53,993 bases of DNA from a virus. Both the position numbers and the translations under genes were made by a program. The notes beneath the pieces were generated by a model that saw only the letters and a program-made list of their open reading frames with translations, did not search any database and was not told where the DNA came from. The stretch covers positions 1-53,993 of the IMG/VR virus record IMGVR_UViG_3300027754_000120; one strand, 5' to 3'. This document shows, piece by piece, positions 2,479-38,886 of this stretch. Numbering within the stretch: position 1 is the first letter of the stretch; the number at the start of each line of letters is the position of its first letter.

Positions 2479-2488
2479 GGAGACAACT

Positions 2489-3083: not shown

Positions 3084-3085
3084 CT

Positions 3086-3639: not shown

Positions 3640-3642
3640 CAC

Positions 3643-3659: not shown

Positions 3660-3701
3660 ATAAGGCATTTGCTTGGTAGTGGTATTCGGGGTCTAGTGCA
3701 T

Positions 3702-3741: not shown

Positions 3742-4230
3742 ATGCGCCGATTTGTTCCGCTAGTAGCTGAGGCCGCCCGACGTTTTGTGCCCGCCGTGGC
3801 ACACGATCAGGCGTTTGATACTTTGGTGCTGGCGTCGGCGTCGGTTGTCTGGACAGTCTCGAACCGCATCGTGGTCGAGTATATGACCAATGGCGCCCTC
3901 GGCCAGTTTTGCTTGATCGCTTGGCCGTCAACACTTTTACCATTTTATGTCCGCTCTGCCGGCACACGGTATGCCCTTAACGATGACTTCGCGGGCGCCC
4001 CAGTCTGCTGGTCGGTTCCTTATGCCGGCCAAATTCTCGATGACACCTCCGTCTTTGAGTTTTGGGGCGATGGTGCAACTGGCTCGGCCGCGCTGCCCGA
4101 GATATCGCTCACAATTTCCCAACGGTCCCAGCTGTGCTGTGACGAGACCGATGGTTATGTAAACACAAGCACGCAATATCTCCCATATTGCAAACCGTAT
4201 CCTGTATACTTCCCGATATGCATATCATAG
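3742..4230 (+). CDS. Hypothetical protein, first gene of the tail operon
   Basis: 162 residues, no family recognised. It has an alternating hydrophobic/polar pattern suggesting beta structure and several Cys near the C-terminus (LCC, YC, IC). There is no Shine-Dalgarno sequence; the ATG directly follows the T-rich tract of a hairpin. Its end overlaps the glycosyltransferase start (4218) by 13 bases. Position suggests a virion or fibre-related protein, but this is only context. Confidence 0.55.
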   Translation: MRRFVPLVAEAARRFVPAVAHDQAFDTLVLASASVVWTVSNRIVVEYMTNGALGQFCLIAWPSTLLPFYVRSAGTRYALNDDFAGAPVCWSVPYAGQILDDTSVFEFWGDGATGSAALPEISLTISQRSQLCCDETDGYVNTSTQYLPYCKPYPVYFPICIS

Positions 4231-5204
4231 GTTCATTCTACGAGGCGAATGGCTACGGCCAATTCACGGCCGCGATCATGCGTCACTTGGTGCGCATGAA
4301 ACAGCCGTTCACAATCACGTCGCTGTTCAGCCACCCGGTGCCGCCCGACCTGTTGCCCTATGTGTGCCCGGCGAACCAGCGCCCGAAGACCTTCGACGTG
4401 ATGTTTAGCTCGGTGTCAAACTGCCCGACCGACATTAAGGCCAAAGTCCTTTTCACGATGGCCGAAACGACCACGCTGCCGTGGGAGCACGGCGCCGGCC
4501 TCAAGCGGTTCAAGACAATCATCGTGCCGACCGCCTATTCCGCCGACACCGTGCGCCCATGGAACAAGAATATCCGCTTCTGCCCGCTTGGCTCACAGAT
4601 GGCTTGGGCGCCCATCCCGTTTGACCCTTTCACGTTTGTCGCTGTGGCCACCGATCACATGTGCCCCAAGCGCAAGCGCATTCAAGAGCTCGCCGACGTG
4701 TTTTCGGCCACATTTAAGACGCAACCTGACGTGCGCCTTGTGCTCAAGCGCTCCCCAAATTGCACGCCGACGGTCACATTCGATAAGCGTATCGAAGTCA
4801 TCAACGATAACATAGACCGCAAAGCCTATAATGCCTTGATGCAGCGGGCGACTGTCGGCGTGCAAGTTTCGGCGATGGAGGGTTGGTGCTTGCCGGTCAA
4901 CGAGTTTATGGCGATGGGCCGCCCAGTCATTACGCCGCTGGCCGGGGCCGTTGGCGACTATATTAAGCCCGCCGCGTGCTTCCCGGTCGAGCACAAAATG
5001 GTGCAGGCGCCCAGCGAGGTTTATCTCAGCGCCGGCAAAATTCCGTGGGCCGATATTAAGCAGGTCGGCCAGCAAATGCTTTTCGCCTATAACAATCGCC
5101 TCGAAGTCTATCGGCGCGGGCTGGCCGCGTACGAGGCCTCACAACAACTGACGCCCTTCCAGATGGGCGAACGCTTTATTGCTTTATGTCAAACCCTGTT
5201 CTAG
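4218..5204 (+). CDS. Glycosyltransferase, GT4-like
   Basis: About 328 residues from the ATG at 4218 (an upstream in-frame ATG at 4188 would overlap the previous gene more). The N-terminus, MHIIGSFYEANGYGQFT, is typical of GT-B enzymes. The C-terminal half has the GT4 signature with acidic residue and helix (SAMEGWCLPVNEFMAMGRPVI), preceded by ATDHMCPKRKRI and VRLVLKRS, a nucleotide-sugar-binding Rossmann half. It probably transfers a sugar from a nucleotide donor. It lies in the tail operon, and its end overlaps the next structural gene by 19 bases. The target could be a virion protein, DNA or host surface glycan. Confidence 0.8.
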   Translation: MHIIGSFYEANGYGQFTAAIMRHLVRMKQPFTITSLFSHPVPPDLLPYVCPANQRPKTFDVMFSSVSNCPTDIKAKVLFTMAETTTLPWEHGAGLKRFKTIIVPTAYSADTVRPWNKNIRFCPLGSQMAWAPIPFDPFTFVAVATDHMCPKRKRIQELADVFSATFKTQPDVRLVLKRSPNCTPTVTFDKRIEVINDNIDRKAYNALMQRATVGVQVSAMEGWCLPVNEFMAMGRPVITPLAGAVGDYIKPAACFPVEHKMVQAPSEVYLSAGKIPWADIKQVGQQMLFAYNNRLEVYRRGLAAYEASQQLTPFQMGERFIALCQTLF

Positions 5205-6286
5205 TCACGCCCGGCCCAATTCCGGGCGCCTGCATTAACTCGGCCGGCGAGCTTGACGCCATGGTCACTGGCCTGCTGCCCGTCAGCCCGAACGCTTGGG
5301 TGTGGACAAGTGCCACGGCGCCCGACGTTGTCACCTACCCAATCCTCAAGCGCTGGATTTGGGTCGACCTCACAAACCCGGCCCTGCCCGTTAAGCGGTG
5401 CTGGAACTCAACCATGTCGTCGTGGGACCTTGAATTGCCAGTCGCCGGCTCGATCACGGGCGCCATGATTGCCGACCACACGATCGGCCTCGTCAAGCTG
5501 GACGTCTCGGCGGGCAGCCCACTTTACGTCCTGCGCATCAATGGCGCCGGAACCACTGTCGAATACACGGACCCGCAGAATCTGTTCGACGCCACGCACC
5601 GGCTGCCGGTCGACCACCTTTCGCTGTCGGCCGTGGGCGCCTACGTTCTTACGTCGGACGGCGTGACCAACACGTGGGTCACCAAGGCCGCATTCTTTAC
5701 GTCGGGCGTTGTGCCCTTGACCGCAATTTCTACGTCGGGCGCCGCTAACCCGAGCGTGCTGTCTTACGATGGGGCCACGTTGGCCTACCGCACAGTTGTG
5801 GCCGCCACGGCCAACGACACAATTCCGGTCACCAAATTGTTGCACGACGCGGCCCTGAACATGCCGCGCACGAACGCGGCGGGCACGGCGCTCGAATGGG
5901 CGACGCCGGCGCAGATTGTTGCTACGTTGCTGCCCTATGTAACAAACGGTTATCAGACACCCCTAGCTAATTATCAGGCAGTTCCGGTCGCGGGTGCTGT
6001 TGCAACATTTCCACATGGCTTAGGTTCTACACCATATCGTGCTGGCGCGAGGCTGATTTGCCAAACAGCTGAAGCGGGATTTACTATTGGTCAAGTCCTT
6101 GATTGGGCCGGTATGATGAATTCAGGTAGTGATGATGGTGCACTAGTCTACGGTGTGTATTGGGATAGCACGAATGTATATGTAGCCCATCCGACTGACC
6201 TAAATCTTAATTTTTACTTCTCCCCGACCAATGATTTCCTAACAGCCGCAAACTGGAAGGTCGCTGCATGGGCCGACTCAAACTAA
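5186..6286 (+). CDS. Putative tail fibre/virion structural protein
   Basis: 366 residues. Rich in Gly, Ala, Thr and Asp with repeated short beta-like motifs (LSLSAVGAYVLTSDGV, ISTSGAANPSVLSYDGATL, GTALEWATP), the style of phage fibre shafts. The C-terminal part (about 260-366) becomes less GC-rich, suggesting a separately acquired receptor-binding tip: DNA from about 5940 onward is visibly more AT-rich than the preceding part. It lies between the glycosyltransferase and the tail adaptor gene (3-base gap). Confidence 0.6.
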   Translation: MSNPVLVTPGPIPGACINSAGELDAMVTGLLPVSPNAWVWTSATAPDVVTYPILKRWIWVDLTNPALPVKRCWNSTMSSWDLELPVAGSITGAMIADHTIGLVKLDVSAGSPLYVLRINGAGTTVEYTDPQNLFDATHRLPVDHLSLSAVGAYVLTSDGVTNTWVTKAAFFTSGVVPLTAISTSGAANPSVLSYDGATLAYRTVVAATANDTIPVTKLLHDAALNMPRTNAAGTALEWATPAQIVATLLPYVTNGYQTPLANYQAVPVAGAVATFPHGLGSTPYRAGARLICQTAEAGFTIGQVLDWAGMMNSGSDDGALVYGVYWDSTNVYVAHPTDLNLNFYFSPTNDFLTAANWKVAAWADSN

Positions 6287-6289
6287 CCT

Positions 6290-7315
6290 ATGACTCTCAT
6301 CGAACTTCGCAAGCGCCTCGCGCGCGAGACTGGGCTGAATGCCGACAACGAGTTGCAGGCGGGCGTGCTCGACGACCTCGTCAACGATGCGGCCCAGCAA
6401 ATCTACACGCAGACCGACCTGCCGCGCGCCCTGCGCGAAGAGGCGTTCTCGGTCGACACGACCGACACTGTGCCGCGCATCACGCTGCCCGAGCGCGTCG
6501 GCGAGATTCGGGGCGTCCGCGATTGGGCCGACCGCATCAAGCTGCACGATATCCGGCCCAAATACAACAGCCTGCCGTGGCCCAACGACGTTCTTTACAC
6601 CTTCCGGATTCTCTACGAAACGCCGATCGCGCGCTCCATCGACAATGCGCTGGGGCTTTATATGGTTCCCTTGGCGGGGGACCCGACCAGTGTGGAGGTT
6701 TCGATTGTAGGATCGACCGCCGACGCCCAAGAACTCCACGCTACGTTCGCGGGTGACGGAACTGGTTCGGCGGTCGGCGTTTTGTGGACCTCGATCGCCT
6801 CGATCACTAAGGACGCCATCACGCCCGTGGACGTTCTGCTGCTCGAAGGTGATGCCGACGGCGCCGAAATGGCGCGCCTGACCTCTTATGGCGACCGCTC
6901 CAAGTATATCGAGATCGAGCTTTACGAATACGGCGGCAAGGCCTGCTGCTGCAGCGAGCCCACTTGGTCGGCCGACCGGTGCCTTGAGGTTCTTTACAAG
7001 CCGCCCTTTCGGCCCCTGCTCGATGACAATTCGACGTTTCAGCTTGACGGCTACGACTACGAGATCATTTATACGGCCGTCAAGATTTACCGCATTCGCG
7101 GACTAGGCGCCGAGGCGACCGACTCACAGATCGCGGCCGCCAAGGTCCACGCGGTCAGGGCCGACGAGCTTCTGGCCCAGCGCATCAACGACAAAATTCA
7201 GGGCGAGGAACTTGTGATCGCCTACGGCCCGGCGCGCTGGGACTCTCGCAAGCTGCGCGGCCTGCGTCAGGCGCGCTATGGTCGCAACGTCTGGCTCGGA
7301 GGCCCGTTCCAATGA
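6290..7315 (+). CDS. Tail adaptor, tail-tubular-protein-A-like
   Basis: 341 residues. The start MTLIELRKRLARETGL and the helical N-terminus with VLDDLVNDAAQQIYTQ resemble head-tail adaptors of T7-type podoviruses, and the C-terminal part (YEIIYTAVKIYRIRGLGAEATDSQ) resembles the helical ends of gp11-like proteins. Its position directly before a tail-nozzle candidate (overlap ATGA at 7312) supports this. A CCC cluster (KACCCSEP) in the middle is unusual. Assignment rests on order plus general features. Confidence 0.55.
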   Translation: MTLIELRKRLARETGLNADNELQAGVLDDLVNDAAQQIYTQTDLPRALREEAFSVDTTDTVPRITLPERVGEIRGVRDWADRIKLHDIRPKYNSLPWPNDVLYTFRILYETPIARSIDNALGLYMVPLAGDPTSVEVSIVGSTADAQELHATFAGDGTGSAVGVLWTSIASITKDAITPVDVLLLEGDADGAEMARLTSYGDRSKYIEIELYEYGGKACCCSEPTWSADRCLEVLYKPPFRPLLDDNSTFQLDGYDYEIIYTAVKIYRIRGLGAEATDSQIAAAKVHAVRADELLAQRINDKIQGEELVIAYGPARWDSRKLRGLRQARYGRNVWLGGPFQ

Positions 7316-9768
7316 CCTACAATCAAGAATCATTTCTCGGCGGGCTGTCGTCGCGCTTCGATCGGTTGCGCCCCGACGCCAATTCCTACCCGCTTTTAAT
7401 CAACGGCCGTGTGCGTGATAACCGTGTCGAGGCGATCAAAAAACTCGTGCAGGATACATCGTTGCCTACGGGCACTTATCAAAACATCACGGCCGTTGGT
7501 TCGATTTTGGTGGTCTTCATTTCGGGCGCCGCGTTTTATCGCGACACGGCGACCACGAATGGCTGGCGCTCGGTTTTGGGCCTAACGCTCGACACGGCGG
7601 CCGACGTGGACACTGTGCCAATCCCGGCCAGCACGATCAACTATAAGCGCTCCGGTCCGCTGGACGCCGTCAGCTTTAACAACTCGGCCGCCGCCCGGTC
7701 GCCCGAGGCCATTCTGGCCACCGACGGAACCACGCAGCCCTGCATCCTTTATCCTGTGGCCGGCGGCACCATCGCGGCGCGCCCCACGCAGACCTACGCG
7801 CAATGGACCGAGACGCCCGACGGCACCCTGCGCGAGTATGTGCCCGTGGGCCGCTTTCCCGTTTATGCAGGCCGCAAGCTTTACATGGCGATCAAGAGCT
7901 CGTCGGGCTACCTGAACCGCATCGCGCAGTCGGTGTCGGGGCGCCCGATCGACTTCGTTGTGGCCATCACGAACGCGACGGGCGACAAAGACGGCGATGC
8001 CCTGACCACTGCGACCTCGGCGGGCTTCGACGAGTTGACGGGCCTATACGCGACCAGCTTCAATGACGGCTCGTTCTTGGCGTGCACGGCGCGCAACACG
8101 ACGGGCCTGACGCCCGACTTCTCGAACGGCAGCTTCTTTGGCGAACCATATTTTATCAACACGCCGCTGTTCAAGGTGGGCGCCCTGAACAATCACTCGG
8201 CCGCCGACCTCAATGGCGACAGCGCGTTCATCACGCAGACGGGCATCCTGTCCTACAACGCCACACAGCAGAACAAGATCGAGTCGAACAGTGACCCAAT
8301 TTCGTCGCAGGTCTACAAGTTGCTGGCGCCCACGCAGACTTTTGGGGCGGCCGTCAACTTCAACGACTACGCAATGTTCTCGGTCAACACGGTGTTCGGG
8401 CCGGCGGTCGTTGTTTACGACACGTCGATCGTTAACTCGGCCGGGCCGGGCCGCTTTGTGGCGATCGACATGTATTCGGGCGTCGGTCAAATCAAGCAGT
8501 TCGCCAAGACCACGGCGGCCACGGGCGAGCGCCTTTGGTTCATCACGGCCGACAATCGGCTCTTCGAATTTGGGGCGGCGAGCAGTCGGGAGACCTGTCG
8601 ATTCTATATCGGAGACTGGAACACCGCGTCGGGTAAGGTGGTCCAGAACTTTCGCCGCGCCCAGTTCGTGTTTAGTGAGGTCACCGCGGACACAGTTGTG
8701 CAGGTCACGAACTATACGGACCAGCAACTTATCGAGCGCGTGGGTTACCCGCTGGTGCCCGCCAGCCAAAACGACGCGCCCGTGATTTCGGTGCCCTTCG
8801 CCATGACGACCGGGCCCGCGACCGCGATCGTGCAATATGAGCCGTCTTCGGCGTCATACGGGTTTGGTATCGGCGCCATGGTCGAGTGGGACTCGTCGGC
8901 CAAGCTGGTGTTTTGCACACTTGAGGCGGCCGCAAACGGTATGACGCCGTCGCAGCTGTCTCAGAACTACACTCAGGGCACCGTGACGGCCGCCGCGCCG
9001 CAGAAGTTTGTGTTCGTGGGCGACTTTGACCCCGGCACCGTGCCCGATCTGCTTGTCAAGCTGCCCTTGAACGTGACCGTCATTGGGCTTGGCGACTATT
9101 TCTACGGCGCCGACCACACAACCGACTATGCCGCTTATGCAAATACCCTTCAAGTTCTCAAGTCACAGGGCCGCTTTATCGCAGTTGCGGGCAACCACGA
9201 TCTGGATGTGGACGGCGGCCTTGTTTATAATAACTTTTTTGGTAATGGCAAACGGCACTACAGTATTGTGGTGGGCAACGTAGAATTCTTTATCTACAAC
9301 ACGGGCTGGAACACGGCGAACGTGGGCACCACGAATCACCCTTATGAGCCGGACGGCTTTGTCGCGGGCAGCGTGCAGGCCAACGAACTGCGCGCCGCGC
9401 TGGCGGCCAGCACCGCCAAGTTCAAGTTCGTTGTGCTCCATGAGCCGCCTTACTCGTCGGTTGCCAACTACACGCCGGGCTACAGTTTGTTACGTTTACC
9501 GTTTAAGGCGTGGGGCGCCACGGCCGTGTTCTCCGGCCACGCGCACCTTTATGAGCGCGTTATCGTTGACGGCCTCAACTATTACACCGTGGGCACTGGC
9601 GGCCATAGCCCGTCGGCCTTCGCGGCCAGCTACGTGGCGGGCCACCAAAACGGCCTCGCCTCAACTCCCGGCTACCTAATGCTAACCACCGACGAATATG
9701 ACGCCACCAGTAAATTCATCCGCGCCGACACCGGAGCCGCCGTCGATCTATTTGCTTTCGGCCGCTGA
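7312..9768 (+). CDS. Tail-nozzle-like protein fused to a C-terminal metallophosphoesterase
   Basis: 818 residues. Residues 1 to about 560 fit a tail tubular protein B-like nozzle (start NQESFLGGLSSRFDRLRPDANSYP typifies proteins that list virion beta-propeller blades). Residues about 565-815 form a calcineurin-like metallophosphoesterase with the full motif set: GDFD (570-573), GLGD with D595, GNHD (627-630), LHEPPYS with H710, and GHAH (742-745). These bind two metal ions and hydrolyse phosphoesters; the GNHD/GHAH spacing recalls purple-acid-phosphatase-like enzymes. As part of the tail it would carry a phosphatase on the virion, perhaps acting on surface phospho-groups. The substrate is unknown. 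Confidence 0.8.
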   Translation: MTYNQESFLGGLSSRFDRLRPDANSYPLLINGRVRDNRVEAIKKLVQDTSLPTGTYQNITAVGSILVVFISGAAFYRDTATTNGWRSVLGLTLDTAADVDTVPIPASTINYKRSGPLDAVSFNNSAAARSPEAILATDGTTQPCILYPVAGGTIAARPTQTYAQWTETPDGTLREYVPVGRFPVYAGRKLYMAIKSSSGYLNRIAQSVSGRPIDFVVAITNATGDKDGDALTTATSAGFDELTGLYATSFNDGSFLACTARNTTGLTPDFSNGSFFGEPYFINTPLFKVGALNNHSAADLNGDSAFITQTGILSYNATQQNKIESNSDPISSQVYKLLAPTQTFGAAVNFNDYAMFSVNTVFGPAVVVYDTSIVNSAGPGRFVAIDMYSGVGQIKQFAKTTAATGERLWFITADNRLFEFGAASSRETCRFYIGDWNTASGKVVQNFRRAQFVFSEVTADTVVQVTNYTDQQLIERVGYPLVPASQNDAPVISVPFAMTTGPATAIVQYEPSSASYGFGIGAMVEWDSSAKLVFCTLEAAANGMTPSQLSQNYTQGTVTAAAPQKFVFVGDFDPGTVPDLLVKLPLNVTVIGLGDYFYGADHTTDYAAYANTLQVLKSQGRFIAVAGNHDLDVDGGLVYNNFFGNGKRHYSIVVGNVEFFIYNTGWNTANVGTTNHPYEPDGFVAGSVQANELRAALAASTAKFKFVVLHEPPYSSVANYTPGYSLLRLPFKAWGATAVFSGHAHLYERVIVDGLNYYTVGTGGHSPSAFAASYVAGHQNGLASTPGYLMLTTDEYDATSKFIRADTGAAVDLFAFGR

Positions 9769-10090
9769 CCTGCGCGACATCGTGTTGCTCTGGATACCGC
9801 ACAACCATTTTAACTATGTCGACTTTGATGTTAATAAGTTTGTTGATTATGTCCTTTACTGCGCGTGCAACGGCCTCATGCGCGTCGGGCGCGATTCCGC
9901 TGGCCGTGTTGATTATATTTGCATTTGGAATTGTGACGAGCCCGACACCATTCATTTTGAATTTGTGGCTGGGCGCGGCGCTCAGTGGGTTGCGGACCGC
10001 GCTGAGGTCCTTCACGGCTTTAAGTATTTCACAATGGAAAAGCGCGGCGTCCGGCGGCGACACAAAATTCTTAAACAACATTTAACTTAA
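9698..10090 (+). CDS. Small phage protein, possibly T7 gp13-like
   Basis: Up to 130 residues. The ATG at 9698 overlaps the nozzle gene by 71 bases; a TTG at 9752 would give a shorter overlap and a more natural N-terminus (LSAADLRDIVLLW). The C-terminal half (ADRAEVLHGFKYFTMEKRGVRRRHKI) recalls small GNAT-fold proteins found beside internal virion genes of T7-like phages. Weak similarity by eye only. The next gene starts 5 bases after its stop. Confidence 0.5.
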   Translation: MTPPVNSSAPTPEPPSIYLLSAADLRDIVLLWIPHNHFNYVDFDVNKFVDYVLYCACNGLMRVGRDSAGRVDYICIWNCDEPDTIHFEFVAGRGAQWVADRAEVLHGFKYFTMEKRGVRRRHKILKQHLT

Positions 10091-10095
10091 ACCTT

Positions 10096-10950
10096 ATGTC
10101 AATTCTATCTAAAGCTTTCGGTGACGAGTTCAAGCCTCAGTCGCTTGACTCGCGGGCCGCCGATCAGCGCGCGGTATTCGAGAAGAACTATCTGCCCTAT
10201 CTCGATAAACTGAGTGAGGGGCAGCGGGCCGAGGCGCTATCGGGCCTCGACACGGCGCGCGCTATCACGCCGGGCTACAATGACTTGGCGCTTAGTGAAC
10301 TTAACCGCACCGCCGACACCGCAGGCGCTGTCGACCAAAAGATGGCCGGCGCCCAAGCGCGCGGCGATATTGCTAACCTCAACCAGTATGGCGTCGATGC
10401 GGGCAAGGCGCTAATGGCCTCGGACCAAAGTGTCAACCCCGAGTTCTACGCGAACAGGGCGCTGACCGGCCAAAAGATGATGGACGCCCTGAACGCCCAG
10501 TCGCCCGACTTGTCGGCCGGGCAGCGCGCCGAGGTAGAGCGCGGGGCTGGGCGTCTAAACCCATACGGCTCCGACAACTCGGCGGTCGACACCGCAAATA
10601 AGGCGTCCCAGTTCGGGTCGGCCCATCAGGCGCAGGTCAACAACTTCACGAACGCGATCAATGGCATTTCGCAAAACCTTGGCAACCTGAAATCGGGGCT
10701 GTCGCCTGTGAGTTTGGCGCTCGGGCGCGACTACAAAGGCGGGGCCGCCAATGGCGCCATCGCGCCTGTCACGCGCGGCGATAACACGGCGTTCCAAGTT
10801 GGGCAGGGCTTCATGAACAACATAAATGGGCAGGCCGGCCAAATCGATCAACTCAAGGCGAACGCGTTCCGCTCGTATGGTGACGCGCTCAATCAAGATT
10901 CCTCCTCGTTCTCAAACATCGCGGGCGGCGCTGCGAAATTGGGCGCTTAA
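10096..10950 (+). CDS. Putative internal virion protein
   Basis: 284 residues, Ala/Gly/Asn/Gln-rich, mostly helical with a spaced DTAGAVDQKMAGAQARG pattern and a C-terminus rich in small residues (FSNIAGGAAKLGA). No enzyme motif. It lies between the tail genes and two further large internal-protein candidates, as gp14-type ejection proteins do in T7-like genomes. No Shine-Dalgarno: the leader is AACTTAAACCTT. Confidence 0.55.
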   Translation: MSILSKAFGDEFKPQSLDSRAADQRAVFEKNYLPYLDKLSEGQRAEALSGLDTARAITPGYNDLALSELNRTADTAGAVDQKMAGAQARGDIANLNQYGVDAGKALMASDQSVNPEFYANRALTGQKMMDALNAQSPDLSAGQRAEVERGAGRLNPYGSDNSAVDTANKASQFGSAHQAQVNNFTNAINGISQNLGNLKSGLSPVSLALGRDYKGGAANGAIAPVTRGDNTAFQVGQGFMNNINGQAGQIDQLKANAFRSYGDALNQDSSSFSNIAGGAAKLGA

Positions 10951-10962
10951 CTTTCTTATCTT

Positions 10963-12165
10963 ATGCCAGACAATTATATCGACGAACAATATATCGAGAA
11001 CCCCTATCAAGGTGACTTCTATGGGTCGCCTAACATGGCGCCCAACGCGCTTGAGAACTATAAGCGCCGGCCGTCTTACAGCGGCGGCGAGCGCCTTGGG
11101 CCCTATGCCGACCCCGCAATGTATACGGAGGATGGCCACCTTAAGGCGGGCAGCTACGTCGGCAAGCCAATCGACTGGAGCCCGTCAAATGTGGCCAAGC
11201 GGATTTTGACACTGGGCGCCGTGGGCAACGAAAACGGCGAGGCCAGCAAGTATAACAAGAACCTCGATCAGCAGCGCGCCGCCACTGAAACGATCGTGAC
11301 GCGCGAGCGGGCGCAGCACAACAATGAGATTAATCAGGCCATCGACTTCTTGGTTGCGTCGGGCACGCCCGAAGATCGGGCGCGCCAGATCGCCAATAAC
11401 CATTACGCGGCCAACTGGAAGGCGGGCATCGCGGGCGACGAGGCGGCGGGCGCCGGAAGCATAAACGCCAAGATTCAGGCCGAGGCGGTGCGGATGGGCC
11501 TTGCGGAAAAAGCGCAGGCCGCCCAAGAAGCTCAAAGGCAGGCATCGTTGGCGGCAGCTGAGGGCTCAGCTAATGAGGTGCGACGCCAGCAATCGAGGGC
11601 CCGCTTTGGGACTCCTGAAAAGTTAGGCGCTAATGAAGATGCAACACTTACGAATGCCGGCGATGAGTTAAAGCTTGGGGCCACTGACCTTCAAACGCGC
11701 AAAACGCTTAAAGCAATCGCGGACGCGAATGCAATTGCTACTGCAACGGCAGATAATGAATACTTCGACGCGAAGGGTAATGCGTTCCAAAAGGATATGC
11801 TTGACACTGTTAACAAGGACAAGGCGTTTAGTGATGCGCAGATTGGGCTGGCCGCCTCGGAACGGGAGCTTATGCACCCCTCACCTAAACCGGTAGCCAT
11901 TCCGGCCTTCAGCGAGGTTGGCGATTTACTCTCGGGTAAGAAACTGTTCCAGAGCGGTGTGCGGACGCGCGGCATACCGGTGCCCGACGGTATGGGCGGC
12001 TTTAAGATCGTTACTGTCAAAGATGATGGGACGACCGGCGACCCGCGCAGTGAGTATGTCACACCTAATTCACCAGTCATGGGAATGCCCGGCGCCACGT
12101 CGCTCGGGCCTAACGTCAACGGAAAAGCTATTAAATTCGCCGCGCCCGTCATCCCTAATCCCTAA
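10963..12165 (+). CDS. Putative internal virion protein, coiled-coil rich
   Basis: 400 residues. Tyr/Asn-rich N-terminus (DNYIDEQYIENPYQGDFYGS), then a long helical charged stretch around residues 85-210 (RAQHNNEINQAI, EKAQAAQEAQRQASLAAAE), then a Gly/Pro-rich end. The pyrimidine-rich leader CTTTCTTATCTT replaces a Shine-Dalgarno site. The middle (about 11540-11880) is less GC-rich than the flanks. Probably an ejection protein by position; no family recognised. Confidence 0.5.
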   Translation: MPDNYIDEQYIENPYQGDFYGSPNMAPNALENYKRRPSYSGGERLGPYADPAMYTEDGHLKAGSYVGKPIDWSPSNVAKRILTLGAVGNENGEASKYNKNLDQQRAATETIVTRERAQHNNEINQAIDFLVASGTPEDRARQIANNHYAANWKAGIAGDEAAGAGSINAKIQAEAVRMGLAEKAQAAQEAQRQASLAAAEGSANEVRRQQSRARFGTPEKLGANEDATLTNAGDELKLGATDLQTRKTLKAIADANAIATATADNEYFDAKGNAFQKDMLDTVNKDKAFSDAQIGLAASERELMHPSPKPVAIPAFSEVGDLLSGKKLFQSGVRTRGIPVPDGMGGFKIVTVKDDGTTGDPRSEYVTPNSPVMGMPGATSLGPNVNGKAIKFAAPVIPNP

Positions 12166-18261: not shown

Positions 18262-19608
18262 TTATTTCTTAATTCCGCGATAGGTTTGGTTTGTATGGTC
18301 TTTAACGATCAGGCCCTGCGCCTGTAAAAGATTGATGATCTCGTTGAGTTCGTCCATGTTGGCGTCGTCCATGAACTGAATCATGAGCTCTTGGAGGCCG
18401 ACGCCGGGGTGCTTGGTGATGTAGGTGCACATGGTCTTGGCGACTGGGCTAAGCGGGTTGCGGCCGCCGCCCTGCAGCGCGACGTGCATGTTTTCCTCGG
18501 TGCGCTTGAGTAGGTCGATGGCCCGCTTGATTGTCTCGACGGGCACAAGCTCGTTGAAGCCGGGGTCCGAATAGTGCATGGCCATGATGACCTTGTGCGT
18601 GTGGTCAATTTTGCGCACATAATACTCGTCGAGCTTGTGGTGCTTGTTGACGCGGACCCGGTCGACGTCGCGCCACCACTCGCGCAGATAGGCTTCGGCC
18701 TCGGGCGAGTAGCGCACCACGCCGTAGACGTTCGACAACACGCGTAGCCAGTTAAGAATCTCGTCGCGCGCGGCCTGCTGGGCGGGGTCGGGCTCGGGGA
18801 TTTTGATGTCGCGGTCCTTGGTGCATTCCGCATAGACAATCATGAGGCGCGCCGAGAAGCCGGTGCCGATGATCTCGTTGCGCTGGATTTTCATGAGCTC
18901 GGTCGGCGTGGTGCCGGCGATCAGGTTCATGCACTGGTTGCGAATCGGGTCGACGCCCTTGTTTTTGGTGCGGCGCAGGTAGTCCTTGCAGTTCCACGCG
19001 CTTAGCAAAAAGGTCACTGTGTCCTCGGAGTGTTTCTTGAAGATCGACGTGAACTCGTCGAGCAAGAAAATCAGGCTGGCGTGCGGGTAGCTCTCGCCCT
19101 CTTTGCCGCCGGGGATTTTGAATACGTGCGTGGCCGCCACCATTTCCTGCGTGAGCGACTCGAAGGTCGTCGAGTCGGCGGCGAACGGGAAAACCTTCTC
19201 GACCATGCTGTCGTCGGACTTGCCCATCGCCTTCATGACCGCCTTTTCGTGGGCGCTATACCGGCTGGGCCGCTCGTGGTGGCGCAAGAAGGCGGCGATC
19301 TGGTCAAGCTGGAGGCCCTTGCCACAGCCCGGCGGCCCCACAAACAGCACGAACTGGTTGGCAAATTGCGGGTAGCTGTTGTTGTCATACCAGACTCGGC
19401 GCTGGAGCGCCGACGAAATCATGGTCAGCCACGACCACTCAATGAAGATGTCGGGCGAGAAGCTGTCGCGGTTCCAGAGTTTCCAGCGGGAAAAGTTAGT
19501 CATGGGTGGTTTCGGTTTGGACAATTTATTGATATCATAAATCATTTTTTGCTTGGGCTGGCGTTGTGCTTTTATTACTGCGATTTGCGTCTTGTGCTTT
19601 GTTATCAT
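18262..19608 (-). CDS. AAA+ ATPase, DUF3987-like replication helicase candidate
   Basis: 448 residues from the ATG at 19608, which has the AACACTACC leader seen at other starts here; ATGs at 19545 and 19503 are alternatives. Walker A GPPGCGKG is at residues 91-98, Walker B SLIFLLDEF is near 180, and a sensor-like LIAGTTPTEL lies further on. FSARLMIVYAE and the C-terminal winged-helix-like end (HPGVGLQELMIQFMDDANMDE) resemble DUF3987-type helicase/ATPases used in phage replication. It lies among polymerase, ligase and dNMP kinase genes, so a replicative helicase role is likely. Confidence 0.7.
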   Translation of the reverse strand: MITKHKTQIAVIKAQRQPKQKMIYDINKLSKPKPPMTNFSRWKLWNRDSFSPDIFIEWSWLTMISSALQRRVWYDNNSYPQFANQFVLFVGPPGCGKGLQLDQIAAFLRHHERPSRYSAHEKAVMKAMGKSDDSMVEKVFPFAADSTTFESLTQEMVAATHVFKIPGGKEGESYPHASLIFLLDEFTSIFKKHSEDTVTFLLSAWNCKDYLRRTKNKGVDPIRNQCMNLIAGTTPTELMKIQRNEIIGTGFSARLMIVYAECTKDRDIKIPEPDPAQQAARDEILNWLRVLSNVYGVVRYSPEAEAYLREWWRDVDRVRVNKHHKLDEYYVRKIDHTHKVIMAMHYSDPGFNELVPVETIKRAIDLLKRTEENMHVALQGGGRNPLSPVAKTMCTYITKHPGVGLQELMIQFMDDANMDELNEIINLLQAQGLIVKDHTNQTYRGIKK

Positions 19609-19972: not shown

Positions 19973-20210
19973 CGGCCCAGTTCCTTGCGTCCTCGGCCGC
20001 GTCGTCATAGTCGGGTTCGGGTAGTTCTGATTCGACCGCGCCCATGTCAATAAACCGGTCGCAGTTTGAGCAATAGCGCGGGTCGATGCTGGCGTCCTCG
20101 GGCGGGTAGCACTTTTCGGGCGGGCCGTCGAGCTTGCCGGGCATGGCGCCCGTATATTCGACGACGGTCTCAGCTTCGCATTCAGGGCAGATGTATGTAA
20201 CGGTGGTCAT
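19962..20210 (-). CDS. Small zinc-ribbon-like protein
   Basis: 82 residues. Two Cys pairs (CPEC at 9-12 and CSNC near 48) could bind one zinc, and the C-terminus is very acidic (ELPEPDYDDAAEDARNWADD). The start overlaps the polymerase C-half stop by ATGA (20207-20210), so it is co-translated with the replication genes. Role unknown. Confidence 0.55.
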   Translation of the reverse strand: MTTVTYICPECEAETVVEYTGAMPGKLDGPPEKCYPPEDASIDPRYCSNCDRFIDMGAVESELPEPDYDDAAEDARNWADDN

Positions 20211-21184
20211 AGCTTATATTCTCTCAGGCCGCCGGGGTTTTCCCCGGTCTTCTTGTTAAATTTTCCCATGTTCTGGCCGACCTGAACCTCAGAGGCCATC
20301 GTGAACTCGGCGCCGTCGCGCCCGACGAGCGGCATGTTGATGAAGCTGGTCATGGCGGCGGCCGCCTGAGGCACTTCGTCGTCGGGCACCAGCGCCGCGT
20401 AGCTATCGTGCTTGTTGTTGAAGGGCCGCCACGTCAGGCCTTCGCGCCGGATATAGTCAGTGAGCAATTTGTATGCCGCGTGGGTTATGCAGCCGACGGT
20501 CGACTGGGGCACCCACGAAATGGCCTCGCGGATATAGGCGTCCGTGATGATCTGGTGGAACGGGCGCGGGAACCCGAGCAGGTTGCGTAGCTGGCGCGCA
20601 GTCTTGACCTGCTCTTCGATCTCGTCCTGCCACTCGACGATCTCGGGGAAGATAATCTTATAGGTGTTCAGGAAGTGGGCGGCCTGCTCCATCGACAGGT
20701 TCAGGGTGCCGTTTGACTCCTTGAGCGCCTGCTCGCGAAAGGTGTTTTCGCGCATCCGGTAATTGCTGGCGTGGCCCGTCTTCTTGCCGAGGTCATACTC
20801 AAAGGGCGACGACGAGATTGTCTTAGACAGGGCGGCCCACTCGGGATAGGTCTTAAGGACGCCGGGCTTGGTCAGCCAATAACGCGTCGGCGAGTTGGCG
20901 CCCCGGAACTTGTCGAGGAAAATGTGCAGGGCGACATAGATATGCGGCTTGACGCCCTCGGTGAACAGCTCGCGGTAGTTGCCGGGCCGGCAAAGGTAGG
21001 CGACAATCAGGGCCTCGGCGCCTGCTTGGTCGACCGACACAATCTTCCAGCCGGCCGGCGCCTCGAAGATGTCGAGCAGCGATTTGTCGCTGTTCTGGGC
21101 GTTGATGCCGTAACCAAATAACTGCGAGGCACTAAGCCGGAAAGACTTAGTGCCCGCAATTTTCAATTGTGTCAGTGCTTTCAA
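20207..21184 (-). CDS. Family A DNA polymerase, C-terminal half (palm and fingers)
   Basis: 325 residues. Motif A VSVDQAGAEAL (D52), motif B KKTGHASNYRM (134-144) and motif C NKHDSY (H259, D260) define the family A catalytic core. Just before motif A lies KSFRLSASQLFGYGINAQN, the usual GRxSS/NxQN region. There is no exonuclease or thumb; these are encoded by the separate gene at 22288-23682. Start is TTG at 21184, overlapping the GroES-like stop (TTGA), with an in-frame stop 2 codons upstream, so this is a genuine separate gene. In motif B the usual YG is YR, a deviation worth noting. Confidence 0.85.
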   Translation of the reverse strand: MKALTQLKIAGTKSFRLSASQLFGYGINAQNSDKSLLDIFEAPAGWKIVSVDQAGAEALIVAYLCRPGNYRELFTEGVKPHIYVALHIFLDKFRGANSPTRYWLTKPGVLKTYPEWAALSKTISSSPFEYDLGKKTGHASNYRMRENTFREQALKESNGTLNLSMEQAAHFLNTYKIIFPEIVEWQDEIEEQVKTARQLRNLLGFPRPFHQIITDAYIREAISWVPQSTVGCITHAAYKLLTDYIRREGLTWRPFNNKHDSYAALVPDDEVPQAAAAMTSFINMPLVGRDGAEFTMASEVQVGQNMGKFNKKTGENPGGLREYKL

Positions 21185-21486
21185 TGGTCAACAATGGTGA
21201 GCTCGGGCGCCAAGTCAAACCACGCGATGAGGCTGTTCGTGTGGACCAACATCAGGTCGCGCTTGCCGACGAGGTTAGGGATGCCCTTGCCCTCGGTCAC
21301 AAGTATGCGGGTGCCGGGCGCCAGCACGTCGGCGCACTGGCGGTTGTCCTCCAAGCACACAATGTATGCGAAGTCGGGGTTGTCGCGCGCCGACTCGGGC
21401 AGCACGATGGTGCTTTCGGTTTTGCGGTTGAGCTTCTCGGCGAGGATGTAGCCGGGCGCCGGGTGGATTTTGGTATCGTTTTTCAT
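21181..21486 (-). CDS. GroES-like co-chaperonin
   Basis: 101 residues from the ATG at 21486 (overlaps the ligase stop as ATGA). It fits Cpn10: IHPAPGYILAEKLNRKT at the start, a mobile-loop region TESTIVLPES, LAPGTRILVTEGKGI, and the end LMLVHTNSLIAWF. GroES-type phage proteins (T4 gp31 type) cap the host GroEL for capsid folding. Here the gene lies between the two halves of the DNA polymerase, not beside the capsid gene. Whether it serves capsid or polymerase folding cannot be told. Confidence 0.7.
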   Translation of the reverse strand: MKNDTKIHPAPGYILAEKLNRKTESTIVLPESARDNPDFAYIVCLEDNRQCADVLAPGTRILVTEGKGIPNLVGKRDLMLVHTNSLIAWFDLAPELTIVDH

Positions 21487-22286
21487 ATCAGTTCTGTGCA
21501 CCTTACCATGTAAGGGATTTGTTTGTCTGTCAGCCCGAGGTATCTAATCTTGGCGCGCGTGGGCTTCGGGTCGCGCACCCAAATCTGGAGTCGTTCGTCG
21601 TCGTCAAACTCGAAGCTGCCGACGTGGAACTCTAGGCCCTCAGGCGACCTGCAAATTATGCCGCCGATCGAGTTGTCATATTTGCCTTGGCCGCGCACCA
21701 GCGCGACCACGTCATACTCGCCATCCTTCCAGCCCTTGCGCCGGAGAATCATGGACGAGCGGCCGGGCACATACTCGCCGGGGTGCTTGTAGCAGGCACC
21801 CTCGTAGCCGTCGGCGAGCCACGCAAGATAGGCCGTGCGCGCCTCCTTGTCGCACTTGACTTCGAGGTGCGGCACGAAGGTAATGCCGGCCAGCCCTTGG
21901 AGTTGGCGCTGGCGCTCAAGGCAGTCGGCCTTAATCTGCGGACTGTCAAAGACGTGTAACGCAATGGCCGCGTGGTCGGCGTGTGGCTTGACACGGTTGA
22001 CGCCGGCGCGCGAGTTGATTTGCTGGAGGCTCATGCCGTGCGCATAGAGTTCGCCGTCGAGCCAGAGCGGTGTAGAGGCCAAGGCCGCCTCGATGTGCGG
22101 CAGGACGCCCGACTCGTAGGGCACGCCGTCCTTGGAGAACAGGCCGACGCCCGGCACCCACATGGCGCGCACGCCGTTGAGTTTGGGCATGGCCCAGCGC
22201 GGCCAGTCGGGCGAGTTCTTGGGGTCGAGGTCTTGCGGGCGCGCGAACATGTCGGCGATCGCGGCGGAGCGGGGTAGTGATGCCAT
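21483..22286 (-). CDS. ATP-dependent DNA ligase
   Basis: 267 residues from the ATG at 22286 (a longer frame to 22325 would overlap the polymerase N-half; the ATG one base after that gene's stop is preferred). The nucleotidyl-transfer motif is KLNGVRA (KxNG variant of KxDG), then LDGELYAHG (motif III), YEGACYK (motif IV) and LRRKGWKDGEYDVV (motif V). It seals nicks in replicating DNA. It lies directly downstream of the polymerase exonuclease half. Confidence 0.85.
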   Translation of the reverse strand: MASLPRSAAIADMFARPQDLDPKNSPDWPRWAMPKLNGVRAMWVPGVGLFSKDGVPYESGVLPHIEAALASTPLWLDGELYAHGMSLQQINSRAGVNRVKPHADHAAIALHVFDSPQIKADCLERQRQLQGLAGITFVPHLEVKCDKEARTAYLAWLADGYEGACYKHPGEYVPGRSSMILRRKGWKDGEYDVVALVRGQGKYDNSIGGIICRSPEGLEFHVGSFEFDDDERLQIWVRDPKPTRAKIRYLGLTDKQIPYMVRCTELI

Positions 22287-22287
22287 G

Positions 22288-23682
22288 TTATCTTTTCTTG
22301 AGGCCGTGCCACATTGTGAAGCCAAGCTCGCCGACCACTTTGCGGGCGTGCTTGAATTTCAGGAGCGCCACGACTATTGGGTTTTTGTATTTAAGAAGGA
22401 ATCCGTATAGGGTCCCCTCATCGACGCAAGGTTCGCCTGTTGCTGTGCGCTTGCGCACTGGATAGCTAAGTCCCTTAATGAAGTATCCGGCGACCTGCTT
22501 TGGGCTACCGGGATTGAGTTGAAAGCCGGCCAGAATCGAGACGATGCGCCCGTATTGGGCGGCTGCGAATTCATGGACGCGCCTGTGTTCGAGGAGCTTG
22601 AGGCCGTTGACGGGTAGGCCGTGGAGGCTGGTGTAGAGATATGGGAAGATGGAGTCGTTGACTTGGCGGACGCTGGCGCACAGGCCCTCGTCGCCGCTTG
22701 CCTCCGCATAGGCCCACTGTGCTCGATGTATTGCGCGGAGCGTGGCAACATCTTTAGAATTATAGCGCAGCAGGGTGTCTTGCTGGGCCCATGAGCGCGG
22801 ATGCCAAGTGCCGCCTTCACTTTTGTGATAAGGTTCATTTATCCAGAGGGTTATGTTGTGGGCGAGGGACTTTTCGATTTCGGGATTTATGCGGTGGCCC
22901 ATCAGCATGGTGTCTTCGATGTCGGGGCCGAAGGGAATTCCGTGGTAGAGGGCGAGGAAGGGCAGGTCGAAGCCGGCGTTGTGGATTACGATTTTAGAGT
23001 CGCCAAGTCGGCGCGCCAGCGCTGCCAAGAATCCCAAAGCTCCGTTGCTTCTATCTCCGCGATAGTCGTAGATGACAACTGTGAAGACCGGCCCGTTGTC
23101 GTGCGCGAACGAGAGGCACTGGAGCGTGTTCGTGTCGGGGTGCGTTTCGATGTCGAGGTAGATTGTGCCTCCGCCGCCAACGCGCGCCAGAATCGCAGCA
23201 GCCGCATCGTTTGAGATGTGGTTAAACTCAGCTTGGGCGCCATAGTATTCGCGCGCAAAAAGCTTTTTACAGTCCGCGAGAAACCAGAAACGGAAATTAC
23301 GGCGCTGTGTTGGGGCGCTGTCTTTGCCGGTCGAGGCGGCCGAGGCGTCGTCGTCTTCGTCGTTGTCGCTTTCATAGTCTTTGAGGTCAACTGCATCTTG
23401 GGGCCAAATGGTGGCGACCAGCTTTTGCGGGCCGAGGTGCCAAACGTAGCCGCGCGCCGACAAGATTTCCTTACCGTGGATAAACGCGTCGAGCGATTCT
23501 TGGCCGGTCAGGATTATGTATTCGTAGGCGGGCTGCTTGGCACGGAACTCGGGCGCGTAGCACACATCGTAGTCGAGGCCGAGCGCCTCGTTGACAAGCT
23601 GCCGCGCCGGCCCGATCAGCACGCCCTTGTTGGCGATGTCAAAGCGGCTCGGGCGCGGCAGCACTACGAGGGTCTTAGCCAT
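22288..23682 (-). CDS. Family A DNA polymerase, N-terminal half (UDG-like domain, 3'-5' exonuclease, thumb)
   Basis: 464 residues. Residues 1 to about 100 resemble the uracil-DNA-glycosylase fold (IGPARQLVNEALG, IILTGQESLDAF, ARGYVW), but the usual catalytic HPS-like motif reads WPQ, so it may be inactive. An acidic linker follows (105-125). The exonuclease motifs are YLDIETH (D177, E179), HNAGFDLPF (H234 to D239) and YNSKD (Y307, D311). The thumb follows with LNPGSPKQVAGYF, and the protein ends shortly after KFKHARKVVGEL, just where motif-A palm sequence would begin. The palm half is the gene at 20207. Confidence 0.85.
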   Translation of the reverse strand: MAKTLVVLPRPSRFDIANKGVLIGPARQLVNEALGLDYDVCYAPEFRAKQPAYEYIILTGQESLDAFIHGKEILSARGYVWHLGPQKLVATIWPQDAVDLKDYESDNDEDDDASAASTGKDSAPTQRRNFRFWFLADCKKLFAREYYGAQAEFNHISNDAAAAILARVGGGGTIYLDIETHPDTNTLQCLSFAHDNGPVFTVVIYDYRGDRSNGALGFLAALARRLGDSKIVIHNAGFDLPFLALYHGIPFGPDIEDTMLMGHRINPEIEKSLAHNITLWINEPYHKSEGGTWHPRSWAQQDTLLRYNSKDVATLRAIHRAQWAYAEASGDEGLCASVRQVNDSIFPYLYTSLHGLPVNGLKLLEHRRVHEFAAAQYGRIVSILAGFQLNPGSPKQVAGYFIKGLSYPVRKRTATGEPCVDEGTLYGFLLKYKNPIVVALLKFKHARKVVGELGFTMWHGLKKR

Positions 23683-24316
23683 TGGTCAGGGCGGCCGAGA
23701 TTTTCTTGAGGTCGCGGGTCGAGGCGACGGGCCCGATGGGCTTGAGTATCGGGTCGAAGGCCGCCTTAGTCTCGGCCGCCTCGTTGCGGTTCAGGGCGTC
23801 GTGCGCCGAGAACTTGTCGCCGTAGCGCTGGCGCAGCTTGGTGATGTTGAGTTGCAGGATGCCGTCGGTCGGCATGTGGCCGTCACCGATGGCCACCGTG
23901 CGCTCGAAGATTTCGGCGGGCAGCGTTTTCCAGTAGTCGGGAAACGGGTCGGACTTCTTGACCGGCGTGCCATAGACGAGGGCCGCCTTGACGCGCGAGG
24001 CAAACAGTTCGCACAACTCATACACGGACTGGACGCCCTGCGGCGGATAGGGCGTGCGGCCGTTGGGCTTGAAGCCCAGTTCCTCGGCGGCCAGCGCGCT
24101 GAACCAGCACAGGTCGGACATCTCAAGGAGCGACTCTTGGTGCGCCTTGTTGCGGGCCAGCGACGATTGCAGTTCGAGCGCCTCGGTGGTCAGGCCGAGC
24201 GCCATGTGGAGCAGGCGCGCCGTGTTGTGGGGCGCCAGTGATTTGATGGTCAGGTCGGGATAGGTTCCCTCGGTGACTTTGGCTAGGGGCAGGTATGTTT
24301 CGTAGGTCAGTTTCAT
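23675..24316 (-). CDS. MazG-like nucleotide pyrophosphohydrolase
   Basis: 213 residues from the ATG at 24316, which follows a hairpin and T-rich tract. The helical core ALGLTTEALELQSSL with LLEMSDLCWFSALAAEELG has the ExxE...ExxD metal-binding pattern of all-alpha NTP pyrophosphatases. Such enzymes hydrolyse NTPs/dNTPs and may lower ppGpp-related signals during infection. The C-terminal half is variable. It overlaps the start of the polymerase N-half by 8 bases. Confidence 0.65.
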   Translation of the reverse strand: MKLTYETYLPLAKVTEGTYPDLTIKSLAPHNTARLLHMALGLTTEALELQSSLARNKAHQESLLEMSDLCWFSALAAEELGFKPNGRTPYPPQGVQSVYELCELFASRVKAALVYGTPVKKSDPFPDYWKTLPAEIFERTVAIGDGHMPTDGILQLNITKLRQRYGDKFSAHDALNRNEAAETKAAFDPILKPIGPVASTRDLKKISAALTNG

Positions 24317-24327
24317 AATGATTAACA

Positions 24328-24350
24328 GAAAGGGCAGCCCATTGCTGGGC
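24328..24350 (-). terminator. Weak hairpin with T-rich tail upstream of the MazG-like gene
   Basis: On the minus strand GCCCA-GCAA-TGGGC (24350-24337) is followed within a few bases by CTTTCTGTTAATCATT and the ATG. The short stem makes this doubtful as a terminator, but the hairpin-tract-ATG layout matches other starts in this genome. Confidence 0.4.
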
Positions 24351-24362
24351 GGCCGTGTTCTA

Positions 24363-24881
24363 TTAAGCAGCGAGTTCGCTAAGTTTCTTGGGCAGGCCGA
24401 CAATCCCGAAGGACGAGAAGTCGGCGCGCTCGAAGCCGCCGATGACCCGGCCCGCCGAGTCCTTGAGCGGGACGCCGTCTGGCCCGAGCATGGGTTCGGC
24501 CTTGGAAGACACGACCATTTCAAAGGTCATGCCCGGCAAGTAGCCGTCGGCGGCCGCCTGCATGTTTTCGATGTCCTCGGACTGCGAGCTTGCCACGTCG
24601 GGCAGCGGGACGCCCATCATTTCGAGGGCGCTGATTGTGTTGGCGAGCGCCTTGTCGCCGAAGGTCAAATACATGGTGCCTTCGATACCGGCGGTGTGGG
24701 ACATGGCGCCGTTGCCGTTCGTGACTTGTTCGGGCGAGAGAATCTGGACGTCGATCGCCAACATGGGCGCGCCGGTTTTCTTGCTGGGCGCGTTGACGAC
24801 TTTGGTGCAGAGGACTCGGTAGACAAGGCGCGGGACAAGGGGCGCTTTGGTGTCGGATGCTTTGGGTCTAGTGTAACTCAT
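24363..24881 (-). CDS. Possible single-stranded DNA-binding protein
   Basis: 172 residues. The beta-rich N-terminal half (LVYRVLCTKVVNAPSKKTGAP, LAIDVQILSP) and the partner genes (RecA-like ATPase, nuclease) fit an OB-fold single-stranded DNA-binding protein in the DUF669-like group, but there is no diagnostic motif. A weak sigma-54-like promoter lies upstream (24938). The leader GCACTACT before the ATG matches other starts on this strand. Confidence 0.4.
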   Translation of the reverse strand: MSYTRPKASDTKAPLVPRLVYRVLCTKVVNAPSKKTGAPMLAIDVQILSPEQVTNGNGAMSHTAGIEGTMYLTFGDKALANTISALEMMGVPLPDVASSQSEDIENMQAAADGYLPGMTFEMVVSSKAEPMLGPDGVPLKDSAGRVIGGFERADFSSFGIVGLPKKLSELAA

Positions 24882-27432: not shown

Positions 27433-28257
27433 TTAACAGTTGTCGCCGATCGCCGGGTTGATGCCGTCGGCGCCCACGCCAAAGACGCGGCGCTGGAGAA
27501 TCCAGTTTTCAAGGGCGCGCACGTTGCCGCCCGAGTTGATGATCGCGTCGGGCACGTGGGTCACGGTCTCGTCGTCGTCCGTCGTGATGTGGTCGGCGAT
27601 CAGGATGGCGTCGTCGGGCCGGGCGCTTAGCGGGTAGGTGCTCAGCGTGATGGCGCTGATGCGGTAATATAAGTCCTCGCGGAAGCGGTGGTCGGCGACC
27701 TCGACTTGCAGATTGCGGTTGGTCGCAAACACGAAGCGGCACATGATAGGGACTTCGTGGTCGTGGCCGACAGGCAAGACGCGCTTCTCCTGAATGACGC
27801 GGAGCAGCTTGGCCTGCTGGTTGAGAGGCAGTTCGCCTATCTCGTCGAAGAACACAACGCCGTCGCGCGCCGTGACGAGGATGCCCGGCTTGTCGGACGC
27901 GGCGCCCGTGAAGCTGCCGCGCTTGTGCCCGAACAGGAGCGACTCAAACAGCGTGTCGACCAGCCCGGCGCAGTTGACCGGGAAGAACGCGGCGTCGGAC
28001 CTGTTGCCCAGCATCATGCGCGCAATCATTTCCTTGCCTGTGCCGGACGGGCCGGTGATCAAGACGGGCTCGGCGCGGAAGGCGATCAGCTTGGCGCACG
28101 CGATCAGCTGCTGCGAGGGCGGGTGGTTTGTGATGTAGCAGTCTGCGCGCCGGGCGAGCGCGGACTTGAGGATGTTCGCCGCGAACGCGGCCGGCATGGC
28201 GGCCAGCGCCTGTGACTGGAGGTCGACTTCGTGTGGTAGTAGGTGGGCTAGTTTCAT
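27433..28257 (-). CDS. Sigma-54 transcription activator (AAA+ domain only)
   Basis: 274 residues. Walker A GPSGTGKE (69-76), the sigma-54-contacting loop GSFTGA (114-119; GAFTGA in most relatives), Walker B FFDEIGELP (136-144), sensor I FVFATNRNL, arginine-finger region FREDLYYR (192-199) and sensor II GNVRALEN (244-251) are all present. These define bacterial enhancer-binding proteins, which remodel RNA polymerase-sigma-54 by ATP hydrolysis. It has no N-terminal receiver or GAF domain and no C-terminal Fis-type helix-turn-helix; the chain ends about 20 residues after sensor II. It would therefore act constitutively and from solution. Perfect sigma-54 promoters elsewhere in the genome are its likely targets. 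Confidence 0.92.
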   Translation of the reverse strand: MKLAHLLPHEVDLQSQALAAMPAAFAANILKSALARRADCYITNHPPSQQLIACAKLIAFRAEPVLITGPSGTGKEMIARMMLGNRSDAAFFPVNCAGLVDTLFESLLFGHKRGSFTGAASDKPGILVTARDGVVFFDEIGELPLNQQAKLLRVIQEKRVLPVGHDHEVPIMCRFVFATNRNLQVEVADHRFREDLYYRISAITLSTYPLSARPDDAILIADHITTDDDETVTHVPDAIINSGGNVRALENWILQRRVFGVGADGINPAIGDNC

Positions 28258-38083: not shown

Positions 38084-38212
38084 CGTGACTTATATCGGAG
38101 CGCGCCTCTAATATAAGTGAGGCGCATAGGATACTTAGGATTAGGAACCAGCCCGAAATGAAACCCGAAATTGACTACGGAACGTCTCACATTTTTTCCA
38201 GATTTTTCAGGC

Positions 38213-38229
38213 TTGGCACGCCTCTTGCT
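38213..38229 (+). promoter_or_regulatory. Sigma-54 promoter (-24/-12), packaging operon
   Basis: TTGGCACGCCTCTTGCT, perfect at every fixed consensus position (GG 38215-38216, GC 38227-38228). Predicted start near 38240, 17 bases before the ATG at 38257. It heads a tightly overlapping run of genes to the scaffold gene. Confidence 0.9.
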
Positions 38230-38256
38230 AGACAAAAGCGTATCTCCCGCCCGCCT

Positions 38257-38886
38257 ATGAATTATTTAATATACGACACAGAGACGAGCGGCCTGCCGCA
38301 AAAGGGCGGCGGGCTGGCGGCCCAGCCGTGGCTTTTGCAGTTGGGCGCCATATTGCTCGACGAGAACTTTGAGGCGATCGGCGAACTCAACGCGCTCGTG
38401 AATTACGGGCACGACGTGCCGATTCACCCGAAGGCCGCCGAGGCGCACGGCTTCACGAATGAGCGGTGCCGCGCCGAAGGGCGGCCGCCCGCCGAGGTTT
38501 TTGAGGCTTTTGAGGCTATGCGGCGCAACGCCGAAGTGCTGGTCGCCCACAACAAGGAATTTGACGACCAGATTTGGAGCTTCTTCGTGCAGCGCCTCGG
38601 CGAGCAAACCTGCAAGCCGGCCGGCTATTGCACCATGTTGGCGATGGTGCCGATCATGCGCATCCCTTTCAAGACTAAGCGGCCCGGCTGGAAGTGGCCA
38701 AACCTAATGGAGGCCTACGGCTACGTGACCAACGGCCAAAAGTTCGATGGCGCCCACGACGCTATGGCCGACGTGCGCGCCGTTGTTGAGATCTATCGGT
38801 GGCTAAAGAGGCCCCGGCCCGCCGCCCAAAGCCCGGCCCCGGCCCGGCCCGCGCCCTTCAACCTTATGGCCCACGACGTTGTATGA
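38257..38886 (+). CDS. DnaQ-like 3'-5' exonuclease
   Basis: 209 residues from the ATG at 38257; an upstream in-frame ATG at 38158 would place the sigma-54 promoter inside the gene. The DEDDh residues are visible: YDTETSG near the start, VAHNKEFDDQ in the middle and GAHDAMADV near the end. Such exonucleases trim 3' ends of DNA or RNA. First gene of the packaging operon, overlapping the glycosyltransferase start by ATGA. Pro/Ala-rich C-terminal tail. Confidence 0.8.
   Translation: MNYLIYDTETSGLPQKGGGLAAQPWLLQLGAILLDENFEAIGELNALVNYGHDVPIHPKAAEAHGFTNERCRAEGRPPAEVFEAFEAMRRNAEVLVAHNKEFDDQIWSFFVQRLGEQTCKPAGYCTMLAMVPIMRIPFKTKRPGWKWPNLMEAYGYVTNGQKFDGAHDAMADVRAVVEIYRWLKRPRPAAQSPAPARPAPFNLMAHDVV

Follow-up and report, generated by a model that had tools for sequence, protein, structure and literature searches.

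A family A DNA polymerase gene divided at the thumb/palm border around ligase and Cpn10-like genes in a viral genome, and breaks in related phage polymerases

The polymerase locus and its setting

The window, by which we mean the whole stretch of DNA analysed here (53,993 nucleotides; IMG/VR record IMGVR_UViG_3300027754_000120), carries on its minus strand a family A DNA polymerase in two separate genes. The minus-strand order is the exonuclease and thumb half, a ligase, a Cpn10-like gene, and the palm and fingers half, and the four open reading frames lie at the positions and in the order that a first-pass annotation of this DNA had given. The locus and its two neighbours comprise the following genes.

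23675..24523, minus strand: MazG-like pyrophosphatase, upstream neighbour, start codon uncertain (PHROG_229, E=6.6e-18)
22288..23682, minus strand: N half of the family A DNA polymerase, with a diverged UDG-like region, the 3'-5' exonuclease and the thumb; 464 aa (Pfam/PHROG)
21483..22286, minus strand: ATP-dependent DNA ligase, between the halves; 267 aa (PF14743, PHROG_114, PDB 8u6x)
21181..21486, minus strand: Cpn10/GroES-like co-chaperonin, between the halves; 101 aa (PF00166)
20207..21184, minus strand: C half of the family A DNA polymerase, with palm and fingers; 325 aa (DNA_pol_A, PHROG_17)
18262..19608, minus strand: DUF3987 primase/helicase-like gene, downstream neighbour (PF13148, PHROG_14296)

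These genes had been described as nearly touching or overlapping, and the junctions are indeed that tight. The exonuclease half and the ligase are separated by a single nucleotide (TAA-c-ATG), the ligase and the Cpn10-like gene share an ATGA overlap at 21486-21483, in which the Cpn10 ATG at 21486 overlaps the ligase stop, and the Cpn10-like gene and the palm half share a TTGA overlap at 21184-21181, in which a TTG start lies on the Cpn10 stop. TTG 21184 is the only possible start of the palm half: two codons upstream of it stands an in-frame TGA, and no ATG occurs before motif B. No Shine-Dalgarno match was found for this TTG start, and the RNA structure near it is unremarkable (z=0.80). A frameshift fusion of the Cpn10-like gene to the palm half is not favoured, since the TTGA overlap shows no slippery heptamer. 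In all four genes of the locus, the codon-position GC pattern is that of the neighbouring genes.

The contig bears an exact 2,057-bp direct terminal repeat (1-2057 and 51937-53993) and for this reason looks complete; it probably represents the entire genome, about 51.9 kb in size. The repeat would suit either a genome complete as it stands or a circular molecule whose assembly overlaps at the ends. Searches with the palm or exonuclease half in viral contigs, and with the palm half in genome contigs, brought up no close relative of the window, and no other polymerase was found among the open reading frames scanned in this genome. Apart from the split polymerase, a DnaQ-like exonuclease gene lies on the plus strand at 38158-38886 (PHROG_192, 6e-23).

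Two halves of one polymerase and the genes between them

The exonuclease half matches Pfam DNA_pol_A_exo1 (5.4e-6) and covers positions 564-944 of PHROG_17 (9.4e-24), and the palm half matches Pfam DNA_pol_A (7.7e-9) and covers positions 964-1232 of the same PHROG (3.5e-25). When the halves were joined end to end and fitted to a reference profile of 794 positions built from intact relatives, the N half ran up to position 512 and the C half began at 513, although the residues right beside the cut are placed on the profile with little certainty. The split thus falls at the thumb/palm border, as the first-pass annotation had proposed, and from this abutment it follows that the locus encodes a full polymerase cut in two rather than two unrelated fragments. 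As judged from the alignment, no residues are lost at the break. The earlier statement that no intein is visible also holds: no intein family was matched, and polymerase-like sequence reaches within a few residues of both ends.

The exonuclease half keeps D177, E179, D239, Y307 and D311 (Exo I, II and III), the palm half keeps D52, K134, H138, Y142, H259 and D260 (motifs A, B and C), and neither half contains an internal stop. The motif B arginine is replaced by tyrosine in the window, as it is in 8 of 25 relatives. Divergence is strong in both halves: of the highly conserved columns, 27 of 55 differ in one and 45 of 77 in the other. The AF2 model of the palm half (pLDDT 79.0) matches Taq and Klenow structures at E~1e-11, and that of the exonuclease half, which is of lower confidence (pLDDT 66.8), finds its best PDB matches in phiVC8 DpoZ (top) and Pol I. 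The UDG-like N-terminal region (23150-23682, minus strand) is strongly diverged in the window and well conserved in relatives; in the window it is probably not a working glycosylase.

As for the genes in the break, the ligase matches PF14743 (7.7e-8), PHROG_114 (6.2e-35) and PDB 8u6x (E=2.3e-17). It has a KLNGVR motif, and the 8u6x alignment spans the KLxGVR motif; by PHROG_114, PF14743 and 8u6x, it possesses both a nucleotidyltransferase domain with the catalytic lysine and an OB domain. The Cpn10-like gene matches PF00166 weakly (E=2.3e-4; 21.6 bits vs. the curated cut-off of 21.1), a marginal score for a near full-length domain (positions 4-91 of 93), and no match to it was found in the PDB or in phages. 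Relatives of the ligase were found in viral contigs at two loci (L009 and L010), both distant. A related ligase, only 31% identical, is encoded by the Desulfofustis phage outside its intact polymerase gene, a position that would fit the transfer of such a gene into the break.

Breaks in related polymerases

The distant relatives found through the polymerase and those found through DUF3987 are largely one small set of phages. Three of them, Microcystis phage Mel-JY34, Manatee Spring phage MW202489 and Desulfofustis phage LS06-2018-MD01, share the window's domain order and its downstream DUF3987 gene, but their polymerase is one uninterrupted gene. Split polymerases occur in the cultured Vibrio phage VS-ABTNL-3 and Caulobacter phage Kuura, and also in the Manatee Spring genome MW202554. 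The paper describing Kuura names a DNA polymerase and makes no mention of a split.

After scans of viral contigs, 134 loci were available (labelled L with a number below), 90 of them intact and 32 split (about 29 distinct), counts that do not give prevalence, because split sequences guided the last scan. The split count includes MEP401, which was taken in from the literature, and leaves out L033 on account of its single in-frame stop. This stop (6496-6498 of L033) falls within the UDG domain, the polymerase being intact in all other respects, and is either a sequencing error or a fresh break. Identical forms of the same split recur in contigs from different samples (L025/L029 and L030/L031). 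On a quick tree, at least 18 changes between intact and split states are needed (18 to 21, a rough count because the tree has many weak forks); the window lies on a very long branch, and its placement is unsure.

The breaks cluster at a few profile positions, which are uncertain by a few residues near profile gaps:
about 217, between UDG and exonuclease: L034/L028 and L106
about 346, in the exonuclease before Exo III: Kuura, L037, L052, L060, L086 and L088
371-382, exonuclease/thumb border: L055, L117, L126 and L127
512: the window only
547-551, after the NLQNIP motif: 17 distinct loci, the commonest site
567: MEP401
At all sites almost no residues are missing. One locus, L106 (IMGVR_UViG_3300020045_019859, 1800-5195), is cut at both 217 and 549, so that its polymerase is encoded by three genes.

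Loops of variable length occur at about 217, 346 and 549 (p=0.013 for five sites together). The general proposal that all break sites are such loops fails at 371-382 and at the window's 512. In intact relatives, the coding sequence at 544-545, just before the 549 site, is among the strongest 3% of the gene in its resemblance to a Shine-Dalgarno sequence; that at about 343/349 ranks within about 7% of the gene, and no special signal was found at the other break sites. A Shine-Dalgarno-like sequence at 544-546 may favour fission at that place.

The contents of the breaks are varied. Seven are empty or nearly so (L062, L132, L133, L060, L086, L126 and L122), and four hold HNH endonuclease genes (L034, L052, L088 and L127). 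Others hold a dUTPase (L128), ThyX (L113), methyltransferase-like genes (L107 and L036), RNase H (L037), an NrdR-type zinc ribbon (L055) or, in the second break of L106, a MazG-like gene. Among the split loci examined, no second case of the window's 512 break or of its ligase and Cpn10 cargo was found. The idea that the window's gene order would recur in other phages thus holds for polymerase splitting in general, but not for a ligase and Cpn10-like gene at this site.

Locus L034 is nested among intact close relatives, with about 86-89% DNA identity to L013, and carries about 290 nt of net insertion vs. its intact near relatives; the net insert in L052 is about 440 nt vs. intact L047. The HNH genes of L052 and L088, which occupy the same site, are 55% identical and the polymerases around them 43%, so that the HNH genes are the more alike, which is the pattern expected for mobile DNA. 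The break shared by Kuura and L037 holds different cargo in each. The dN/dS values for their halves are 0.19 and 0.25, with dS near-saturated, and these values point to purifying selection on both halves in this, the one split pair tested. Together, the HNH insertions and the cargo difference between Kuura and L037 suggest that an endonuclease insertion was followed by tolerated fission and then by cargo exchange.

Split polymerases in phages are already known. Methylophilales phages MEP401 and MEP402 have a split family A polymerase, for which the authors suspected an intron, and the MEP401-type split was found in most related viral genomes (PMC10580990). These phages resemble the window in having two ORFs, one for the exonuclease and N-terminal part and one for the C-terminal palm part, separated by a small gene, but the break is about 55 profile positions further on (567), the cargo is one 77-aa gene of unknown function, and the phage group is different. 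In the T4-like Aeromonas phages 25 and 44RR, a replicative polymerase is likewise in two pieces, gp43A and gp43B, and those of phage 25 co-purify with polymerase activity (PMC2988022). Unlike the window's enzyme, this polymerase belongs to the unrelated family B, and its two pieces are separated by a seg endonuclease or by an untranslated spacer rather than by replication genes. A third parallel is Aeh1 NrdA, an essential phage enzyme split by mobE, whose pieces reassemble into a fully active enzyme (PMC2988022); it differs from the window in being a ribonucleotide reductase with its homing endonuclease still in place.

Origin, alternative readings and meaning

Overall, we consider it likely, with good confidence, that the locus encodes a two-subunit family A polymerase made by gene fission, with the ligase and Cpn10-like genes in the break. 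The two-subunit assembly proposed in the first-pass annotation is the reading best supported by the sequences, on the strength of the lack of residue loss, the intact motifs, the distant splits and the apparent selection on Kuura and L037. In this scenario, an ancestral single gene for UDG, exonuclease and polymerase would have been interrupted at the thumb/palm border without residue loss. Fission in this clade probably often started with insertion of an HNH homing endonuclease, which would then have been lost or replaced by useful replication or nucleotide genes; the ligase and Cpn10-like gene would be what now fills the window's break. As had been noted, that break contains no endonuclease gene, only the ligase and Cpn10-like genes, and a homing-endonuclease origin of the window's split is conjectured from the other loci. 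The four genes are probably carried on one mRNA with coupled translation, and the exonuclease-thumb and palm-fingers polypeptides probably join non-covalently into a working polymerase.

The strong divergence of both halves, together with a TTG start that has no Shine-Dalgarno match, might suggest that the split polymerase is instead a decaying remnant in a phage that uses the host polymerase. However, all of the catalytic residues checked are present, nothing is lost at the break, the halves have a normal codon-position GC pattern and no internal stops, the ORFs scanned include no other polymerase, and both halves of Kuura and L037 appear to be under purifying selection. We regard decay as unlikely. 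Separate action of the halves, the one as a lone nuclease and the other as an exonuclease-free polymerase, is a little less likely again: phages do encode stand-alone exonuclease proteins, and a further DnaQ-like exonuclease gene lies elsewhere in this genome (38158-38886), but the thumb has stayed with the exonuclease half. A family A palm without its thumb is expected to grip the primer-template poorly (Pol I), so that, with the thumb on the exonuclease half, the palm half most likely depends on that partner.

A group I or II intron carrying the ligase and Cpn10-like genes, with RNA splicing restoring one polymerase, would equally be expected to leave all residues in place, and phage polymerase genes commonly contain introns (cited in PMC10580990). 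Nevertheless, only 1 nt between the exonuclease stop and the palm start is non-coding, which leaves little room for a ribozyme core. No Rfam match was obtained in gathering mode for the window, MEP401 (in which no intron signature was thus found) and the other split loci tested, or in permissive mode for the window, L034, L052, L036 and L025, and the insert-free splits of L062, L132 and L133, whose genes overlap or nearly touch, cannot be introns. We consider an intron very improbable. Least credible is an assembly artefact that misplaced the two genes into an intact polA, since, even though the locus is known from one metagenomic contig for which no sibling was found, the junctions are clean start/stop overlaps, the contig is closed by the exact repeat, and splits of this kind are present in cultured phages and recur unchanged in contigs from different samples.

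Beyond a two-subunit polymerase at this locus, a broader proposal can be offered tentatively, at rather less than even probability: that in this clade the polymerase gene has served repeatedly as a platform for insertions, in which a few fixed, tolerated positions are opened by endonucleases and filled with genes that profit from co-expression (ligase, dUTPase, ThyX, RNase H, MazG-like), such that two- and three-subunit polymerases have evolved many times.

As far as the literature was searched, the thumb/palm cut enclosing a ligase and Cpn10 is new, as are the clade-wide recurrent breaks, the exchangeable genes within them and the three-piece polymerase; recurrent breakage of PolA with cargo exchange was not found reported there. 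A processive polymerase is expected to need its thumb and palm in precise contact. If family A polymerases have been cut many times with function kept, the cuts map the points at which separation is tolerated and provide natural designs for split polymerases. The clade shows several stages of fission, from the intact gene through fresh endonuclease insertion and insert-free overlap to metabolic-gene cargo, so that the way in which multi-subunit enzymes arise by fission can be tested directly.

Some features elsewhere in the genome should also be mentioned. Nine of the large plus-strand ORFs scanned in 1-12165 and 41335-51095 had no PHROG match at 1e-3; the structural genes of this phage appear to be very distant from known ones. 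A strong match to a sigma-54 activator AAA domain (27433-28257, minus strand; PF00158, 2.6e-53) is unexpected in a phage replication region. On the plus strand, at 39569-40947, a radical SAM-like gene stands beside a DNA methyltransferase-like gene, a pair with a possible role in DNA modification.
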